Origin: Candidatus Methylomirabilota bacterium
GTDB lineage: Bacteria > Methylomirabilota > Methylomirabilia > Rokubacteriales > DASRDR01
Reading direction: 5' to 3'
NCBI GenBank assembly: GCA_036005065.1
Contig: DASYQW010000175.1
Location: forward strand, 1-61,837
Length of the DNA: 61,837 nt
Positions 9,315 to 20,710 of the stretch are shown in pieces. Below the pieces are notes generated by a model, which saw only the letters and a program-made list of their open reading frames with translations, did no database searches and was not told the origin of the DNA. The stretch's first letter is position 1. Each line of letters begins with the position of its first letter. The position numbers were made by a program, and so were the translations under genes.

Positions 9315-10856
9315 TCAGGTCCGCCGCAGGCGGAAGTTGAAGCGACGCACCTCGAACTGCTGGTTCGGGTTCGGCGTGAACTCCACGTACTTCTGGAGCC
9401 CGTAGTCCTCGTAGGGTTGGATCACGACGATCCAGGGGTGATGCTCGAGGAAGATCTTGGTCATCTTCCGGTAGGATTCCCCCCGGAACTTCTCGTCCAG
9501 GCTGAAGCGGGCGGCCTGTCCCAGCTCGTCGAACTCGGGATGGCGCCAGTAGTCCTGCGGTCCGCCCGGGGCCAGGAGCCGCCACATCATGCCGTCGGGA
9601 TCGCCGAGCGTCGAGGTGGGGTCCGACCACCAGAGGCCCTTGAACGTCCGGTCGCGGTTCTTCTGGGCACGCACCGAGTACTCGATCACCTCGACCACGA
9701 CGTTGACGCCCACGTCCTTCCACATCCCGGCGATGGCCTCCGACATGGGCTTGTCGTTGGCGGTGTAGCCCACGGTGGTCTCGAGGTAGATGGGCTCGTT
9801 CCGGTACCCCGCCTTCTTGAGCCGCTCTCTGGCCTCCTTCGGGTCGTAGGCGAGCGGAGGCAGGGCCGCATCGTAATGGACGTCGCCCCTGGCGATGGGG
9901 CCGTTGGGCACGATCCCGCGGCCCCGCCAGAGCTCCTTCACGATCGCCTCGCGATCGATGGCCAGCGACAGCGCCTGCTTCACCAGCGGGTGGCCGAGCG
10001 GCGGGACTTTCGAGTTGACGGCCAGCACGTAGAGCCCGGCATAGAGGGCGCCCACCACCCGGGTCGAGGGATGGGTCGCGACGCGCTCCCCGTGATCCGG
10101 CGGAAGCTGGGTGATGACGTCGGCCTCACCCTTGAGGAGCGCGGCCACCCGCGGCGCCGTCTCGGGAATCGGGCGGAAGACGACGCGGTCCACGTCGATC
10201 TTCCCGCCCCAGTAGTCGGGATTCGCCTCCAGCACGAGCCTGTCGTCCTTGACCCACGAGACGAAGCGGACCGGGCCGGTGCCGAGGGGCTTCGCGTTGA
10301 AGGCGTCGCCGCCGACCGCCTCCAGGTATTTCTTGGGCACGATCTGGCCGCCGTAGAAGGCGAGGCGGGCCGGCAGCAGCGGGTCGGGCTGCCGGGTGTG
10401 GATGACGAGCGTGGACGGATCCGGCGCCTCGATCCGGTCGATGACCGTGAACACGGTGTTGACGCGCGCCTTCACCGCCGGGTCGTAGGTCCGCTCGAGG
10501 CTGAACTTCGCATCGGCCGAGCTGAATGGGTCGCCGTTGTGCCACCGGACACCCGGGCGAAGCCTGAACTGCCAGGTGGTCGGGCCGGTGGTCTTCCACT
10601 CGGTCGCGAGCCCGGGCTGGAGCTTGCCGTCCGGATGGCGGCTCACCAGGTTGTCGAAGAGGTTGAAGGTGACGCGGATGTCGTTCGACGACGTCGAGAA
10701 GTGGGGGTCGAGCTTGGAGATGTCACCCCCCTGCGCGACGACCAGCTCCCGCTTCGGGGTGGTCTGGGCGGTTCCCGGCCGGCCCTCGGCGAGCAAACCG
10801 CCGGCCGCCACGGCCCCGAGTCCGAGCGCCTTCAGAAAATCGCGACGGCTCTCCAT
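9315..10856 (-). CDS. ABC transporter substrate-binding protein, family 5, Tat-exported (copy 1)
   Basis: This 513-residue periplasmic solute-binding protein is of the peptide/nickel (SBP_bac_5) type. It starts MESRRDFLKALGLGAVAAGG, a twin-arginine signal. Family landmarks follow: KLDPHFSTSSND, a GVRWHNGDPFSSADAKFS segment (about residues 100-117) and a GTGPVRFVSW segment. I chose the ATG at 10856 because the signal begins there; an earlier start at 10877 adds seven unneeded residues. It is a close paralogue of the next gene, which has the same strand and length and near-identical blocks throughout. No permease or ATPase gene lies beside the pair. The ligand is unknown. Confidence 0.9.
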   Translation of the reverse strand: MESRRDFLKALGLGAVAAGGLLAEGRPGTAQTTPKRELVVAQGGDISKLDPHFSTSSNDIRVTFNLFDNLVSRHPDGKLQPGLATEWKTTGPTTWQFRLRPGVRWHNGDPFSSADAKFSLERTYDPAVKARVNTVFTVIDRIEAPDPSTLVIHTRQPDPLLPARLAFYGGQIVPKKYLEAVGGDAFNAKPLGTGPVRFVSWVKDDRLVLEANPDYWGGKIDVDRVVFRPIPETAPRVAALLKGEADVITQLPPDHGERVATHPSTRVVGALYAGLYVLAVNSKVPPLGHPLVKQALSLAIDREAIVKELWRGRGIVPNGPIARGDVHYDAALPPLAYDPKEARERLKKAGYRNEPIYLETTVGYTANDKPMSEAIAGMWKDVGVNVVVEVIEYSVRAQKNRDRTFKGLWWSDPTSTLGDPDGMMWRLLAPGGPQDYWRHPEFDELGQAARFSLDEKFRGESYRKMTKIFLEHHPWIVVIQPYEDYGLQKYVEFTPNPNQQFEVRRFNFRLRRT

Positions 10857-10896
10857 GTCGACCACCGACTCGATCACGGCGCTCCCCGAGGGGGCG

Positions 10897-12438
10897 TCAG
10901 GCGCGGCGCATCCGGAGGTTGAAGCGCCGGAGCTCCAGCGCCTGGTTCGGGTTCGGCGTGAACTCGACGTGCTTCTGGAGCCCGTAGTCCTCGTAGGGCT
11001 GGATCACGAGGATCCAGGGGTTGTACTCGAGGAACAGCTCGGTCATTCGCTTGTAGGCCTGGCTCCGGAACTTCTCGTCGATGGAGAAGCGGGCGGCGTT
11101 GCCCAGCTCGTCGAACTCCGGGTGCCGCCAGTAATCGTGGGGCCCGCCGGGGCTCATGAGCCGCCACATCATGCCGTCGGGATCGCGGAGCGTCGAGGTC
11201 GGATCGGACCACCAGAGGCCTTTGAACGTCCGCTCCCGGTTCTTCTGGGCCCGCACCGAGAACTCGATCACCTCGACCACGACGTTGATCCCCACGTCCT
11301 TCCACATGGCGGCGATCGCCTCGGACATCGGCTTGTCGTTGGCAATGAGCCCGACGGTCGTCTCGAGGTAGATCGGCTCGCCCTTGTACCCGGACTTCTT
11401 CACCAGCTCGCGCGCCTCCTTGGGGTCGTACTTGAGGGGCGGCAGGCCGACGTCGTAGTGGTTGTCGCCCTTGGCGATCGGCCCGTTCGGCACCACGCCG
11501 CGCCCGCGCCACAGCTCCTTGACGATCGCCTCCCGGTCCACCGCGAGCTGCATCGCCTTCTTGAGGGTCCAGTTGTTGAGGGGCGCCACCTTGGAGTTCG
11601 TGCCCAGCACGTAGAGACCGGCGTAGAGCGCCGAGGCGCCCTTGGTCGTGGGGCTCTGATTGACGCGGTCCCAGTGGTCGGGGGTGAGCTGGGTGATCAC
11701 GTCGAGCTCGCCCTTGACCAGCCCGGCCACCCGCGGCGCCGTCTCCGGGATCGGCCGGAAAATCACGCGGTCCACGTCGATCTTCCCCCCCCAGTAATCG
11801 GGGTTGGCCTCCAGCACGAGCTTGTCGTCCTTGGTCCAGGAGGCGAACCGCACGGGACCGGTGCCGACCGGCTTCGCGTTGAAGGCGTCGGCGCCGGCCT
11901 GCTCGAGGTACTTCTTGGGGACGATCTGGCCCCCGTAGAAGGCGAGGCGGGCCGGGAGGAGCGGGTCCGGCTTCTTGGTGTGGAAGACCACCGTGGAGGC
12001 ATCGGGCGCCTCGATGCGGTCGATCGTGGTGAAGACGCTCGACACCATCGTCTTCACGTTGGGGTCGTAGGTCCGCTCGATCGAGAACTTGACGTCGGCC
12101 GAGCTGAACGGATCGCCGTTGTGGAAGCGGACGCCCGGCCGGAGCTTGAAGGTCCAGGACGTCGGGGTGCTGTTCTTCCACTCGAGGGCCAGCCCGGGAT
12201 TCAGCTTGTCGTCCGGGTGGCGGTTGGTCAGGTTGTCGAAGACGTTGAAGGAGACCCGGATGTCGTTCGACGACGTCGAGAAGTGGGGGTCGAGCTTGGA
12301 GATGTCACCTCCCTGCGCGACGACCAGCTCCCGCTTCTGGGTGGTCTGGGCGGCTCCCGGGCGCCCCTCGCCGAGCAGGCCGCCGGCCGCCGCGGCCCCG
12401 AGTCCGAGCGTCTTCAGAAAATCGCGACGACTGTCCAT
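10897..12438 (-). CDS. ABC transporter substrate-binding protein, family 5, Tat-exported (copy 2)
   Basis: This 513-residue paralogue of the downstream gene has the same Tat-type start (MDSRRDFLKTLGLGAAAAGG), the same family blocks and the same length. Differences are spread evenly, which suggests an old tandem duplication followed by divergence in ligand preference. A GGAGGGAG site lies 7-14 bases upstream of the ATG. The gap to copy 1 is 40 bases, so the two are probably cotranscribed. The SelA-like PLP enzyme gene lies just upstream on the same strand. The set may belong to uptake and breakdown of an amino-sugar- or amino-acid-like substrate, which is an inference only. Confidence 0.9.
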   Translation of the reverse strand: MDSRRDFLKTLGLGAAAAGGLLGEGRPGAAQTTQKRELVVAQGGDISKLDPHFSTSSNDIRVSFNVFDNLTNRHPDDKLNPGLALEWKNSTPTSWTFKLRPGVRFHNGDPFSSADVKFSIERTYDPNVKTMVSSVFTTIDRIEAPDASTVVFHTKKPDPLLPARLAFYGGQIVPKKYLEQAGADAFNAKPVGTGPVRFASWTKDDKLVLEANPDYWGGKIDVDRVIFRPIPETAPRVAGLVKGELDVITQLTPDHWDRVNQSPTTKGASALYAGLYVLGTNSKVAPLNNWTLKKAMQLAVDREAIVKELWRGRGVVPNGPIAKGDNHYDVGLPPLKYDPKEARELVKKSGYKGEPIYLETTVGLIANDKPMSEAIAAMWKDVGINVVVEVIEFSVRAQKNRERTFKGLWWSDPTSTLRDPDGMMWRLMSPGGPHDYWRHPEFDELGNAARFSIDEKFRSQAYKRMTELFLEYNPWILVIQPYEDYGLQKHVEFTPNPNQALELRRFNLRMRRA

Positions 12439-14624: not shown

Positions 14625-15500
14625 ATGATCCCTGCCGCGTTCGAGTACCACGTCCCGACTTCGATCGCCGAGGCCACCGCTCTGCTGACTCGACTCGGCG
14701 ACGACGCGAAGGTCGTCTCCGGGGGTCAGAGCCTCATCCCGCTGATGAAGCTGCGGCTGGCCACGCCCCGGCATCTCGTCGACATCAACCGCATTCCCGG
14801 GCTCGCCTACATTCGGCAGGCCGACGGCGTCCTGCAGATCGGCGCGCTCGCCCGGGAATCGGATCTCGAGGACTCCGACCTCATCGGCACGCGATATCCG
14901 ATCCTGGCCGACACCAGCCGGGTCATTGCCGACCCGCTGGTCCGCAACCTGGCGACCGTCTGCGGTAACCTGGCCCACGCGGACCCCGCCAACGACCACC
15001 CGGCGACCATGCTGGCCCTGGGGGCGGAGGTGGTGGCGGCGGGGCCGAACGGGGAGCGGCGGATCCCCGTCCGGTCCCTGTTCACGGGTCCCTTCACGAC
15101 GACGCTGGCCCCCGACGAGATCATCGTCGAGATCCGGGTTCCGGCCCCTCCGGCGCGCAGCGGCGGGGCTTACCTGAAGCTCGAGCGAAAGGTCGGGGAC
15201 TTCGCCACGGCCGCGGTGGCTGCCCAGCTGACGCTCGGCCCCGACGGAGCCTGTCAGCGCGCCGGCATCGGCCTGACCAACGTCGGCGCCACCCCGATCG
15301 AGGCGGGCCGAGCGGAACGCTTCCTGGCCGGCAAACGGCCGGACGACGCGGTGATCAGGCAAGCGGCCGAGCTGGCGGCCGAAGAGTCCCAGCCCACGTC
15401 GGATCTCCGGGGCCCGGCCGAGTACAAGCGGGACCTCGTCCGCGTGCTGGCGGCCCGCGCGATCCGGCGCGCCCTGGAACGGGCCGGTGGAGGGAGGTGA
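14625..15500 (+). CDS. coxM: Aerobic CO dehydrogenase, FAD-binding medium subunit
   Basis: This 291-residue subunit carries FAD and passes electrons from the iron-sulfur clusters to the quinone-side acceptor. Visible are the N-terminal FAEYHVP-like start ([15 protein letters not shown]) and the first FAD loop [14 protein letters not shown] (about residues 36-49). The second FAD loop is [16 protein letters not shown] (about 112-127), and a CO_deh_flav_C region follows. Gene order M-S-L and the form I large subunit make this coxM rather than a generic xanthine dehydrogenase subunit. It is the first gene after a strong promoter and lies five bases before coxS. Confidence 0.92.
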
Positions 15501-15505
15501 AGGCC

Positions 15506-15979
15506 ATGCGCGTCGAAGTCACGATCAACCGGGAGAGGTACGCGAGCGACGTGGAGCCGCGACTCCTGCTCGTCCACCTGATCCGTGACGTCCTCCGGCT
15601 GACCGGCACCCACATCGGCTGCGATACGACGCACTGTGGAGCCTGCACGGTGCTCCTCGACGGACGGCCCGTCAAGTCGTGCACGGTCTTCGCCGTCCAG
15701 GCGCACGGGCGGGAGCTCATGACGGTGGAGGGCCTGGAGCAAGACGGCAATCTCCATCCGGTCCAGGAAGGCTTCATGCAGGAGCACGGGCTCCAGTGCG
15801 GATACTGCACGCCCGGCATGCTCATGACGAGCTACGCCTTCCTGCGAAAGGCCAAGGATCCCACCGAGGACGAGATCCGCCTCGCCATCTCCGGCAACCT
15901 CTGCCGGTGCACCGGCTACGTGAATATCGTCAAGGCGATCCAGCACGCAGCCGCGAGGCTGCGGCAGGGAGGGACATGA
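15506..15979 (+). CDS. coxS: Aerobic CO dehydrogenase, [2Fe-2S] small subunit
   Basis: This 157-residue subunit has two [2Fe-2S] domains. The N-terminal plant-ferredoxin-type cluster is in [16 protein letters not shown], plus a later Cys in VKSC. The C-terminal four-helix domain has CGYCTPGM and GNLCRCTGY. All eight ligand cysteines are present. I prefer the ATG at 15506 because AGGGAGG lies 7-8 bases upstream; a GTG at 15497 would add three residues. It overlaps the coxL start by four bases (ATGA). Confidence 0.93.
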
Positions 15980-18345
15980 TGCCCCCCAGGACGACGCCCG
16001 AGATCGGCGGGATGGGGCACTCGCTGAAGCGGAAGGAGGATCCCCGCTTCATCCGGGGCAAGGGCACGTACGTGGACGACGTCCAGCTCCCGGGCATGCT
16101 CTATCTCGACATCGTCCGGAGCCCCTTCGCTCACGCCCGGATCAAGAAGATCGATGCCTCCCGGGCCCTGGCCGTTCCCGGGGTGCTGGCCGTCATCACC
16201 GGGCAGGACCTGGCCAAGTACAACCTCCACTGGATGCCGACATTGATGTCCGACACGCAGATGGTGCTGCCGGTGGAGAAGGTGATGTACCAGGCCCAGG
16301 AGGTGGCGGCGGTCCTGGCCACCGACCGCTACCTGGCCGCCGATGGGGTCGACGCCGTGGAGGTCGAGTACGAGCCGCTCCCGGTCGTCGTCGATCCGAG
16401 GAAGGCTCTCGAGCCCGGCGCCCCCGTGCTGCGGACCGACAAGAAGGACAAGAAGGACAACCACATCTGGCACTGGGAGTGGGGCGACCGGGCCGCGACC
16501 GACCGCGCCTTTCAGGGGGCGGACGTCACCGTCAAGGAAGACATCTACCTTCCCCGGATCCACGTGGCCTCGATCGAGACCTGCGGCTGCGTGGCCCACT
16601 TCGACAAGGTGACCGGGAAGCTCACGGTCTGGATGACCACTCAGGCGCCCCACGCCATCCGGACGGTCTTCGCCCTCGTCGCCGGGCACGTCGGCCTCGA
16701 GGAGCACAAGATCCGGATCATCTCGCCCGACATCGGGGGCGGCTTCGGCGGCAAGGTGCCCGTGTATCCGGGGTACGTGATCGCGGTGGCCGCCTCGGTG
16801 CTCACCGGCAAGCCCGTCAAGTGGATCGAGGATCGGATGGAGAACCTCCAGGCCGACTCCTTCGCCCGCGACTACCACATCACCGCCGAGCTGGCGGCGA
16901 CCAGGGACGGCCGCCTGACCGCGCTCCGGATCAAGACGCTGGCCGACCACGGCTACGCCGACGCGGCCGCCAACCCCTCCAAGTTCCCGGCCGGACTCTT
17001 CCACATCTGCACCGGCTCCTACGACTTCAAGGCGGCCCACGTGGAGGTGGACGGCGCCTACACCAACAAGCCGCCCGGCGGCATCGCCTACCGGTGCTCC
17101 TTCCGCGTCACCGAGGCGGTTCACACCATCGAGCGGATGGCCGACCTCATGGCCCACCAGCTCGGCATGGATCCGGCCGAGTTCCGCCTCAAGAACTTCA
17201 TCAAGCCCGAGCAGTTCCCGTACCGCTCGGCCCTCGGGTGGGAGTACGACAGCGGCGACTACGCCGGGGCCCTCCGGAAGGCCATGGAGAAGATCGGCTA
17301 CGCCAACCTCCGGCGGGAGCAGGCCGAAAAGCGTCAGCGCGGGGAGCTGATGGGCATCGGGATCTCGAGCTTCACCGAGATCGTGGGGGCGGGGCCGTCG
17401 AAGCACTTCGACATCCTGGGACTCAAGATGTTCGACAGCTGCGAGATCCGGATCCACCCGACCGGCAAGGCCATCGCGCGCTTCGGGACCAAGTCCCAGG
17501 GGCAGGGCCACGAGACCACCTACGCCCAGATCCTGGCCGAAGAGCTGGGCATCCCGGCCAAGGACATCCAGGTGGAGGAAGGCGACACCGACACCGCGCC
17601 CTACGGCCTCGGCACCTACGCGAGCCGCTCGACGCCGGTCGCCGGCGCGGCGGCCGCGATGGCCGCCCGCAAGATCCGGGACAAGGCCCGGAAGCTCGCT
17701 GCCCACCTCCTGGAAGCGGCCGAAGAGGACCTCCTGTGGGAGCCGGGGAAGTTCTCGGTGAAGGGCGCCCCCGGCCGCGCCAAGACCATCCAGGAGATCG
17801 CGTTCGCGGCGTACACGAACCACCCGCAAGGGATGGAGGCCGGGCTGGAGGCGGTCTCCTACTACGACCCGCCGAGCCTGACCTATCCCTTCGGCAGCTA
17901 CATCTGCGTGGTGGACGTCGACAAGGGGACGGGGGAGGTCAAGGTCCGGCGCTTCGTGGCGGTGGACGACTGCGGGAACATCATCAATCCCATGATCGTC
18001 GAGGGGCAGATCCACGGCGGGCTCACCATGGGGCTGGCGCCGGCGCTCTACGAAGAGATCTCGTACGACGAGCAGGGCAACATCCGGGGCGGCAGCTTCA
18101 TCGATTACCTGGTGCCGACGGCGGTCGAGACTCCGAAGTGGGAGACCGACAAGACGTGCACGCCGTCCCCTCACCATCCGCTGGGGGCGAAGGGCGTCGG
18201 GGAGTCGGCCACGGTGGGGGCGCCGGCCGCCATCGCCAACGCGGTGGTGGACGCCCTCTGGCACCTCGGGGTGCGTCACGTGGACATTCCGATCACCCCG
18301 GCCAAGGTGTGGAAGCTGCTCCGGGAGCACGGCGTCACCGAGTAG
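15976..18345 (+). CDS. coxL: Aerobic CO dehydrogenase, molybdenum large subunit (form I)
   Basis: This 789-residue catalytic subunit binds molybdopterin cytosine dinucleotide and, in form I enzymes, the Mo-S-Cu cluster that oxidises CO to CO2. The decisive feature is AYRCSFR, with the copper-binding Cys at residue 374. Form II and other xanthine dehydrogenase relatives carry AYRGAGR instead. The base Glu is at about residue 743 in [12 protein letters not shown]. Further blocks match known form I CoxL proteins: [43 protein letters not shown] and [14 protein letters not shown]. Length is close to the usual 800-810. It is translationally coupled to coxS. Together these support a functional CO oxidiser. 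Confidence 0.95.
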
Positions 18346-18369: not shown

Positions 18370-18398
18370 TTGACATCTGATGCGTTCGATCATATCAT
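18370..18398 (+). promoter_or_regulatory. Consensus promoter giving a probably leaderless vapB transcript
   Basis: TTGACA at 18370-18375, a 17-base spacer, and TATCAT at 18393-18398. The vapB ATG follows only eight bases after the -10 box, where transcription would be expected to begin, and no Shine-Dalgarno sequence precedes it. The toxin-antitoxin pair can thus be transcribed apart from the cox genes around it. Confidence 0.72.
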
Positions 18399-18406
18399 CT
18401 CTCATC

Positions 18407-18661
18407 ATGGCGCGAACCACCGTCGACATCGATGCCCCCATCCTGAAGGACCTCAAGCGCCTGCAGAAGCAGGAAGGAAAACCCCTGGGGCGGCTCATCT
18501 CCGATCTCCTCGCGGAGGCCCTGGCCCGTCATCGGGCGGCCAGAAGCCAGCCGGCTCCCTTCCGGTGGGTCTCACGTCCGATGCGCGCCCGCATCGACGT
18601 CTCGGACAAGGACGCCCTCTACCTGGCGCTCGAGGACAAGGCGGGAAAGCGCTCGAGGTGA
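18407..18661 (+). CDS. VapB-type antitoxin, ribbon-helix-helix
   Basis: This 84-residue protein has an N-terminal ribbon-helix-helix-like DNA-binding part (ARTTVDIDAPILKDLKRLQK, then a second helix ISDLLAEALARHRA). Its C-terminal tail (PFRWVSRPMRARIDVSD) is the expected toxin-binding region. It overlaps the next gene, a PIN toxin, by four bases (GTGA), the classic type II arrangement. It probably represses its own promoter, which sits directly on the start codon. I chose the ATG at 18407 over one at 18380 because the latter lies inside the promoter. Confidence 0.85.
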   Translation: MARTTVDIDAPILKDLKRLQKQEGKPLGRLISDLLAEALARHRAARSQPAPFRWVSRPMRARIDVSDKDALYLALEDKAGKRSR

Positions 18662-19092
18662 GCTACGCCTTCGATGTCAACGTCCTGCTGTACGCCTCCG
18701 ACCGGCAGAGTCCGTTTCATCGCCGCGCGGTCGAATTCCTCGGCGACTGCTCGTCTCGGGCCGAAGTGTTCTACGTCGCCTGGCCCACGGCGATGGCATA
18801 CCTGCGGATCGCGACTCACCCGGCGGTCTTCGAAGCTCCGCTGCCGCCGGAAGAGGCGATGCGGAACATCGAGGCCCTCCTGCGCCTGCCCCACGCGCGC
18901 TTCCTGGGCGAAGAAGAGGGATTCTGGGACGCCTATCGCCGGGCGACCGACGGCCTCACCGTGCGGGGAAACCTGGTGCCCGACGCGCACGTGGCGGCGC
19001 TTCTATTCCAGCACGGGGTCCGCCGGTTCTACACCCGGGATGCCGACTTCCGGCGATTCGCGTTCCTGGACGTCCGCGACCCCTTCTCATGA
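18658..19092 (+). CDS. VapC-type PIN-domain ribonuclease toxin
   Basis: This 144-residue protein belongs to the PIN family whose members read DVNVLLYA near the start and FLR-x-x-THP-x-x-F in the middle (here YLRIATHPAVF). Acidic metal-site candidates are D6, D109 (PDAHVAALL) and D128/D130 (TRDADFRRF). The usual Glu of the FLR block is Ala47 here; relatives of this subfamily often carry Gly there, so loss of activity is not implied. It would cleave RNA and be neutralised by the upstream antitoxin, to which it is coupled by a GTG start. The pair sits between coxL and coxG. Confidence 0.87.
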   Translation: MSYAFDVNVLLYASDRQSPFHRRAVEFLGDCSSRAEVFYVAWPTAMAYLRIATHPAVFEAPLPPEEAMRNIEALLRLPHARFLGEEEGFWDAYRRATDGLTVRGNLVPDAHVAALLFQHGVRRFYTRDADFRRFAFLDVRDPFS

Positions 19093-19119: not shown

Positions 19120-19698
19120 GTGAAGATCGAGCAGACATTCGTCCTCGAGGCGGCCCCCGACCGCGTGTGGGCCTTCCTGACCGACCCGTATCAGGTCGCG
19201 AGCTGCCTGCCGGGCGCCGCGATCACGGAGCGGATCGACGACCGAACCTGGCGGGGCGCCATCACGGTGAAGGTCGGGCCGGTGACCACGAGCTACAAGG
19301 GCACGATCCGATTCGAGCGGCTCGACGGCGAGCGGTGGGAAGCCGAGCTACTCGGCCAGGGCCAGGACGTCAAGGGCAGGGGTGGGGCCGAGATGCGGAT
19401 GCAGAGCCGCCTCCGCCCGACCGACCACGGCACGGAGATCACCGTCGTATCCGAGGTGAGCATCAGCGGATTGCTCGCCCAGCTGGGCCGCGGGATGATC
19501 GAGAGCGTGTCGACCCAGATCTTCCGGCAATTCGCAGCCGCCATGCAGCAGAAGCTGGCGACGGCCGCCGGCTCCGGCCAGGCCGACGCCGGGGCCACGC
19601 CGGCCGAGCCCAAGCCGTTGAACGTCCTTTCGCTAGGGGCCAAGGCGGTGGGGCAGGCGGTGAAGCGCGCTCTGGGCGGCGAGGCGGAGAACCCGTGA
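19120..19698 (+). CDS. coxG: CoxG-like SRPBCC-domain protein
   Basis: This 192-residue protein has a START/SRPBCC fold typical of CO dehydrogenase subunit G: KIEQTFVLEAAPDRVWAFLTD at the start and CLPGAAITERIDDRTWRG shortly after. A long amphipathic C-terminal tail runs from about residue 145. CoxG proteins are membrane-associated partners of CO dehydrogenase and are linked in recent work to quinone transfer. The start is a GTG with TTGAGGAG about 9 bases upstream. It probably belonged to the cox transcript before vapBC came to lie in front of it. Confidence 0.87.
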   Translation: MKIEQTFVLEAAPDRVWAFLTDPYQVASCLPGAAITERIDDRTWRGAITVKVGPVTTSYKGTIRFERLDGERWEAELLGQGQDVKGRGGAEMRMQSRLRPTDHGTEITVVSEVSISGLLAQLGRGMIESVSTQIFRQFAAAMQQKLATAAGSGQADAGATPAEPKPLNVLSLGAKAVGQAVKRALGGEAENP

Positions 19699-19771: not shown

Positions 19772-20710
19772 ATGAGCGGCGACGATCTGCTCGGGCTGGT
19801 CTATGACCTGGCCCGGCGGCGCGAGCCCTTCGCCCTGGCCACCGTGGTCCACTGCGAGCGGCCGACGTCGGCCAAGCCGGGAGCCAAGGCGCTCATCCGA
19901 TCGGATGGTTCGATGACGGGGTGGATCGGCGGAAGCTGCGCCGAGCCCCTCGCCGTCCGCGAGGCCCTCGAGGCGCTCCGGGACGGGCAGCCGCGACTGA
20001 TCGCGCTCGTCGGCGAGGGCGGCGAGCCGGATCGCCGCGAGGGCGTGCGGGAGTACACCATGAGTTGCCACAGCGGCGGGACCCTGGAGATCTTCATCGA
20101 GCCCGTCCTGCCGAAGCCCCAGCTCGTGCTGGTCGGGAGCGGCCCGGTCGTCGAGACCCTGGCCGCCCTCGGCCGGGCCGTGAGCTTCGACGCGGTGGTG
20201 GTGGCCGGCCCGGAGGACCTCTGGCCCGTCTCGATCACGGCAGAAACCGCGGTCGTGGTGGCCACCCACGGGCGCTTCGACGAGGATGCGCTGGAGCAGG
20301 CCCTCCAGAGTCGGGCGCGCTACGTCAGCCTGGTGGCGAGCCCCAAGCGCGCCCGGGCGCTGGTCGAGACCCTGAGGGGGCGCAGCGTTCCGCTCGAGGC
20401 CCTCGAGCGGCTCAAGGCGCCGGCCGGGCTCGATCTCGGCGCCGTCACGCCCGAGGAGATCGCGGTGAGCATCCTGGCCGAGATCGTCCGCGCCCGCCGC
20501 GCCTGGGCCGACGCCCGAGCGGAGGCGCCCGTCGAAGAGCCGACCGCGGCCGGCACGGCCCGCGACCCGATCTGCGGGATGACCGTGGCCGTCGCCGGAG
20601 CCCCGCCCACCTCGGAGGTCGCGGGCCAGCGGTTCTACTTCTGTGGCGCCGGCTGCAAGGAGCGGTTCGACCGGAACCCGACCCCGTACGCCGTCGGCAC
20701 GCGCGACTGA
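19772..20710 (+). CDS. CoxI/XdhC-family maturation factor with a C-terminal YHS domain
   Basis: This 312-residue protein starts with an XdhC/CoxI domain (EPFALATVVHCERPTSAKPG, then GGSCAEPLAVREA and the MSCHSGGTLEIFIEP block). A Rossmann-like half follows (LVLVGSGPVVETLAALG, VVVATHGRFDEDALEQAL). XdhC proteins bind molybdenum cofactor and help insert its sulfido ligand. Unusually, residues about 263-305 form a YHS-type metal-binding domain: DPICGMTV followed by YFCGAGCKERFDRNP, with three cysteines. YHS domains also occur on copper ATPases and other metal-handling proteins. Because form I CO dehydrogenase needs copper at its Mo site, a metal-delivery role is plausible but is inference. It is the last gene of the cox cluster. 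Confidence 0.85.
   Translation: MSGDDLLGLVYDLARRREPFALATVVHCERPTSAKPGAKALIRSDGSMTGWIGGSCAEPLAVREALEALRDGQPRLIALVGEGGEPDRREGVREYTMSCHSGGTLEIFIEPVLPKPQLVLVGSGPVVETLAALGRAVSFDAVVVAGPEDLWPVSITAETAVVVATHGRFDEDALEQALQSRARYVSLVASPKRARALVETLRGRSVPLEALERLKAPAGLDLGAVTPEEIAVSILAEIVRARRAWADARAEAPVEEPTAAGTARDPICGMTVAVAGAPPTSEVAGQRFYFCGAGCKERFDRNPTPYAVGTRD

Follow-up and report, generated by a model that had tools for sequence, protein, structure and literature searches.

What maturation factor stands at the end of a CO dehydrogenase operon when its XdhC-like body runs on into a YHS domain, and does that additional domain have to do with copper? The question is raised by the gene at positions 19772–20710 (forward strand) of the window, by which we mean the whole 61,837-nt stretch of DNA analysed here. 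A sequence-only reading had placed this gene last in a form I CO dehydrogenase cluster, and its neighbours, all on the same strand, bear this out. The gene coxM (14625–15500) encodes the FAD subunit, with FAD_binding_5 and CO_deh_flav_C domains and 46% identity to CoxM of Afipia (Oligotropha) carboxidovorans; coxS (15497–15979) encodes the 2[2Fe-2S] subunit (Fer2_2, 115 bits; 62% identity to A. carboxidovorans CoxS); and coxL (15976–18345) encodes the Mo-Cu large subunit (61% identity to A. carboxidovorans CoxL). We assigned coxL to form I by a TIGR02416 score above the curated cut-off of 991 together with the active-site motif AYxCSFR; the window protein scores 1275 bits and reads AYRCSFR. 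It lies 1.4 kb upstream of the gene under study and is the only protein of the source genome above the TIGR02416 cut-off, with 30 more family matches all below. The gene coxG (19120–19698) follows, encoding an SRPBCC protein (COXG, 66.6 bits) with a proposed role in membrane recruitment (PMC4240915). The operon thus runs coxM-coxS-coxL-coxG-coxF, and the next gene encodes a glycoside hydrolase.

Two further features of the surroundings were observed. Between coxL and coxG (18380–19092, forward strand) are a small uncharacterised ORF (93 residues) and then a gene for a PIN-domain protein (36 bits in Pfam), a VapBC-like arrangement; where related operons of Rokubacteria were examined, coxL is followed directly by coxG or coxF. 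On the reverse strand, two adjacent and very similar ORFs (9315–10877 and 10897–12438) read like exported ABC-transporter substrate-binding proteins and are likely a tandem duplication.

The gene product comprises 312 residues from ATG to stop. An XdhC_CoxI domain (residues 14–77, 19811–20002; Pfam, 74.9 bits) includes the conserved C56 and is followed by an MxCxSxG loop, MSCHSGG (residues 97–103, 20060–20080), recognised in the alignment as the CoxF signature. The XdhC_C Rossmann domain comes next (residues 118–238, 20123–20485; Pfam, 98.1 bits), and the YHS domain lies at the C-terminus (residues 264–307, 20561–20692). All three domains exceed their own Pfam cut-offs, with YHS (PF04945) scoring 33.6 bits against a gathering score of 30.3. 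The motifs quoted in the sequence-only reading, with their three cysteines, were found as D265-P-I-C268 and YFC291GAGC295; D265, C268, C291 and C295 are candidate metal ligands and correspond to the YHS ligand set of an aspartate (or cysteine) and three cysteines. AlphaFold2, run with 51 homologues, gave a mean pLDDT of 92.6 and a pTM of 0.82, with the YHS part folded and the overall fold, including the Rossmann domain, matching the XdhC structures 2we8 and 3on5; the prediction is silent on bound metal. One polypeptide therefore carries both an XdhC domain and a C-terminal YHS domain, as had been claimed from the ORF. Neither chance nor a frameshift can account for the fusion, since it recurs across dozens of independent genomes, and those independent loci rule out an isolated oddity or an assembly artefact.

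The name CoxI, which the gene had been given at first, did not survive comparison. Against A. carboxidovorans the window protein scores 174 bits with CoxF and 67 bits with CoxI. In the alignment, the CoxF loop (C-x-S-x-G) is two residues longer than the C-GG loop of CoxI/PaoD-type proteins, and the window protein (CHSGG within MSCHSGG) has the longer form, which every one of the 76 CoxF-type proteins shares. When 112 XdhC-family proteins were placed in a tree by a quick method, with the YHS columns left out, the CoxF-type proteins grouped as one clade (SH-aLRT 99) and the window protein fell among Rokubacterial CoxF. An earlier phylogeny likewise grouped CoxI with PaoD, and CoxF with XdhC homologues encoded in other CO dehydrogenase operons (PMC2997495). 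Scores, loop and clade placement together rule out CoxI and identify the gene, from its sequence, as coxF of a form I CO dehydrogenase operon. It had also been stated that coxD, coxE and coxF were all missing from the window; this holds for coxD and coxE and fails for coxF, which is the gene itself. Public records name such proteins only "XdhC family protein", and the CxSxG loop, usually accompanied by YHS, offers an annotation aid that separates CoxF from the rest of the family.

How general is the YHS domain among CoxF proteins? The CoxF-type set (n = 76) comprises 70 loci from a one-genome-per-species scan, the window and plasmid records. The scan patterns were built on the XdhC part of a four-sequence alignment; selection was therefore biased towards CoxF, and not towards YHS or any neighbouring gene. 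By Pfam, 71 of the 76 proteins carry YHS. Its bacterial members come from some ten phyla, and a single haloarchaeon is included; the sources are Rokubacteria, Chloroflexota, Thermomicrobiota, Dormibacterota, Actinomycetota, Pseudomonadota, Bacteroidota, Nitrospirota, KSB1, SAR324, Neomarinimicrobiota, Deinococcota and the archaeon Natronorubrum. The five members without YHS are two alphaproteobacterial and three gammaproteobacterial CoxF; outside the set, six more alphaproteobacterial loci and one actinobacterial locus (Nonomuraea) also do without it. In the literature searched, mostly without subscription journals, we found no paper linking YHS to XdhC or to CoxF. What appears to be new is the pairing of CoxF with YHS, a domain that most CoxF carry and that the model organism's CoxF lacks; the architecture itself was already present in public records.

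Among the XdhC proteins surveyed, the domain is also specific to CoxF. To our knowledge, form I CO dehydrogenase is the only copper-carrying member of its large molybdenum enzyme family, and the sequence-only reading had proposed to check whether XdhC-YHS proteins co-occur with form I coxL. They do: against the 71 of 76 in the CoxF-type set, Pfam detected YHS on none of 49 other XdhC-family proteins. Some of these 49 are encoded at the same loci, and the rest came from the window's phylum, which was searched for XdhC proteins whether or not they had YHS. The form I motif was readable at 66 of the 76 CoxF loci, the other ten having coxL fragments or no coxL within the stretch covered, and every readable neighbouring large subunit was form I. 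An equal frequency of the fusion beside non-copper xanthine dehydrogenases, named beforehand as the outcome that would tell against a copper link, is not what the 49 show. In 18 further whole genomes from many phyla, where XdhC_CoxI proteins were taken whatever their neighbours, YHS occurred on the CoxF type only, and the XdhC proteins beside other large subunits lacked it; here, and in one step of the survey of other XdhC-family proteins, YHS was called by a motif pattern. A second CoxF-YHS of Paraburkholderia xenovorans also lies within a form I operon. Of the 60 genomes surveyed in the window's phylum, nine have a strong form I coxL, and CoxF-YHS is encoded in every one of the nine; in each of two extra carriers, a truncated coxL lies immediately upstream. 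A generic XdhC/CoxI chaperone that acquired YHS by chance, with no special tie to the copper enzyme, would accord with the bare "XdhC family protein" of public annotation; given the absence of YHS from the 49 and a supported CoxF clade beside form I coxL, we consider this reading hardly tenable.

Some of these loci have peculiarities of their own. In three Rokubacterial bins (L043 8623–9976, L046 9593–9976 and L157 5352–5795), the start of coxM is fused to the end of coxL and the middle of the operon is missing, with coxF-YHS intact downstream, through either a real deletion or an assembly collapse. In many proteobacterial form I operons (L057 10981–11805, L058 11651–12532 and similar), coxF is immediately followed by a gene for another XdhC protein, which belongs to the sister group of the CoxF clade and has neither CxSxG nor YHS.

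Mapped on the tree, YHS presence and absence needs six changes, at least four of them forced by well-supported branches, the long branches L009, L010 and L141 being unsure. The alphaproteobacterial CoxF, including that of A. carboxidovorans, branch from within YHS-bearing proteins. Most simply, CoxF would have gained YHS once, early on, and lost it several times, the model organism included; the domain looks ancestral. Within the set of 76, the loop residues C99, S101 and G103 are invariant, M97 occurs in 65 and C56 in 75; the YHS cysteines are retained in 71 (C268), 72 (C291) and 71 (C295), and position 265 is aspartate in 46 and asparagine in 22. A further cysteine occupies position 292 in 62 proteins, where the window has glycine. 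The copper site proposed for A. carboxidovorans CoxF is MCPSHGTM (PMC4240915), of which the C-x-S-x-G core alone is universal, with the methionine usually two residues ahead of the cysteine.

Several CoxF proteins depart from the common pattern. In Deinococcus (L010 8968–10029), the YHS-like tail lacks the first cysteine and FC has become FT; the form I operon around it, which includes coxD and coxE, is otherwise normal. A di-cysteine motif, CC(G/S/A), is found in the linker before YHS in L009, L058, L059, L067, L075, L076 and L106, and at the C-terminus of the three gammaproteobacterial CoxF without YHS (L079, L080 and L100); possibly it is a substitute or extra metal site. Between the window and other Rokubacteria (L038–L047), coxL is mostly about 90–95% identical and coxF only 57–63%, so change in the maturation factor is much more rapid than in the enzyme.

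It had further been suggested that the fusion replaces part of the usual maturation set. Neither coxD nor coxE was found in the 61,837-nt window, and in 29 of the 76 loci, Rokubacteria and Thermomicrobium included, the stretch covered (several contigs being short) shows no coxD or coxE. All 29 carry YHS, and the five YHS-less CoxF of the set all have coxD/E in the locus, a pattern one would expect if the fusion stood in for CoxD and CoxE and this lineage matured its CO dehydrogenase with CoxF-YHS alone. The same pattern is confounded with phylogeny and short contigs, however, and in 42 loci of the set a YHS-bearing coxF occurs together with coxD/coxE. The source genome itself has coxD and coxE pairs on two other contigs, C418 (with a CoxI-type xdhC) and C278. 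Both of its coxE types recur in nearly all related genomes of the order, with or without form I coxL, and a search of the phylum for an unlinked coxE specific to form I found no dedicated partner. Replacement is therefore unsupported, and we regard it as very improbable.

What, then, might the domain do? Insertion mutants in coxE or coxF of A. carboxidovorans produce CO dehydrogenase without copper and with part of the molybdenum sites sulfurated; each mutant lacks both CoxE and CoxF, so the phenotype is confounded, and a need for CoxF in copper insertion is known from this organism only (PMC4240915). In an adenylyl cyclase, a YHS domain confers Cu2+-specific activation, with an aspartate and three cysteines as proposed ligands (PMC4626032). 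The same set is present in the window protein, and its YHS is a probable copper-binding domain. On balance, we favour a reading of CoxF as a two-site copper chaperone, in which YHS would collect copper and the XdhC body would insert it at the sulfurated molybdenum; copper binding and the direction of transfer are both inferred. In this scheme the cytosolic pool would be the source of the copper bound by the YHS domain (D265, C268, C291 and C295). Docking of the XdhC body on apo-CO dehydrogenase would occur at the sulfurated molybdenum cofactor, and the MxCxSxG loop, peculiar to CoxF, would accept Cu(I) and pass it to Mo-SH, completing the CuSMoO2 cluster.

The chief rival to this chaperone reading is a structural metal site: YHS would hold zinc (or iron), or serve as a docking module to CO dehydrogenase or CoxE, and copper, if handled at all, would be handled by the XdhC body only. 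Among solved structures, the nearest YHS-like sequences belong to phenol hydroxylase, for which we know of no copper role. In the crystal of the related toluene hydroxylase, YHS contains no metal (PMC4626032), and YHS/TRASH-like domains may bind other metals, such as Cd in L24e (cited in PMC4626032). The absence of YHS from the sampled alphaproteobacterial CoxF, the studied one among them, from three gammaproteobacterial CoxF and from Nonomuraea is compatible with such a role and means that the domain is not essential for copper insertion everywhere. The Deinococcus CoxF, which has lost YHS cysteines in a form I operon, also counts against the chaperone reading. Yet a structural role should make the domain necessary in other XdhC proteins as well, whereas YHS is confined to the members serving the group's one copper enzyme, and the set of D/N and three cysteines is near-invariant. 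We judge a structural or docking role unlikely. The cyclase domain, which belongs to Mycobacterium phlei, is at the same time a direct precedent for a copper sensor (PMC4626032), whereby copper binding would switch CoxF on when the metal is available and the copper held by YHS would itself not be delivered. Genetics already puts CoxF at the copper insertion step (PMC4240915), however, which makes delivery the simpler explanation and a sensor, in our estimate, rather improbable.

Carried beyond the window, the chaperone reading leads to a broader proposal that we advance tentatively: YHS and the MxCxSxG loop of CoxF may act together as the module by which Mo-Cu CO dehydrogenases in general, and ancestrally, receive their copper, making CoxF a dedicated chaperone that assembles the heterometallic Mo-S-Cu site in the folded enzyme. 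Such a module could have been overlooked because the sole model organism comes from a lineage that lost YHS. The published maturation model is based on a single organism, in whose CoxF no copper domain can be recognised, whereas most CoxF carry one, and the copper route to the Mo-S-Cu centre thereby gains a concrete candidate in the probable copper-binding YHS of CoxF. As most CoxF have the domain, the question of how copper arrives becomes directly testable through metal binding, cysteine mutants and YHS swaps.

Among known systems, CoxF of A. carboxidovorans OM5 (L008 11986–12828) shares with the window protein the XdhC_CoxI and XdhC_C domains, the CxSxG loop and the form I operon, and is 43.6% identical over the XdhC part. 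Unlike the window protein it has no YHS, and in its operon coxL and coxF are separated by just coxD and coxE, two genes that are unlinked to the operon in the source genome of the window. Thermomicrobium roseum (L006) has an XdhC-YHS protein, labelled simply "XdhC family protein", of the same architecture and in the same place behind form I coxMSL, also with no coxD or coxE in the stretch covered; unlike in the window, no coxG separates coxL from coxF. The CoxI/PaoD/XdhC chaperones (2we7, 2we8 and 3on5) share the XdhC fold and two conserved cysteine positions with the window CoxF, but differ in having the C-GG loop without the two extra residues, in lacking YHS and in serving molybdenum enzymes without copper. 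Lastly, the YHS domain of the M. phlei adenylyl cyclase resembles that of the window CoxF in its C-terminal position and in its aspartate and three cysteines as proposed copper ligands (PMC4626032), but its role is to sense copper for a cyclase, with no molybdenum enzyme involved.
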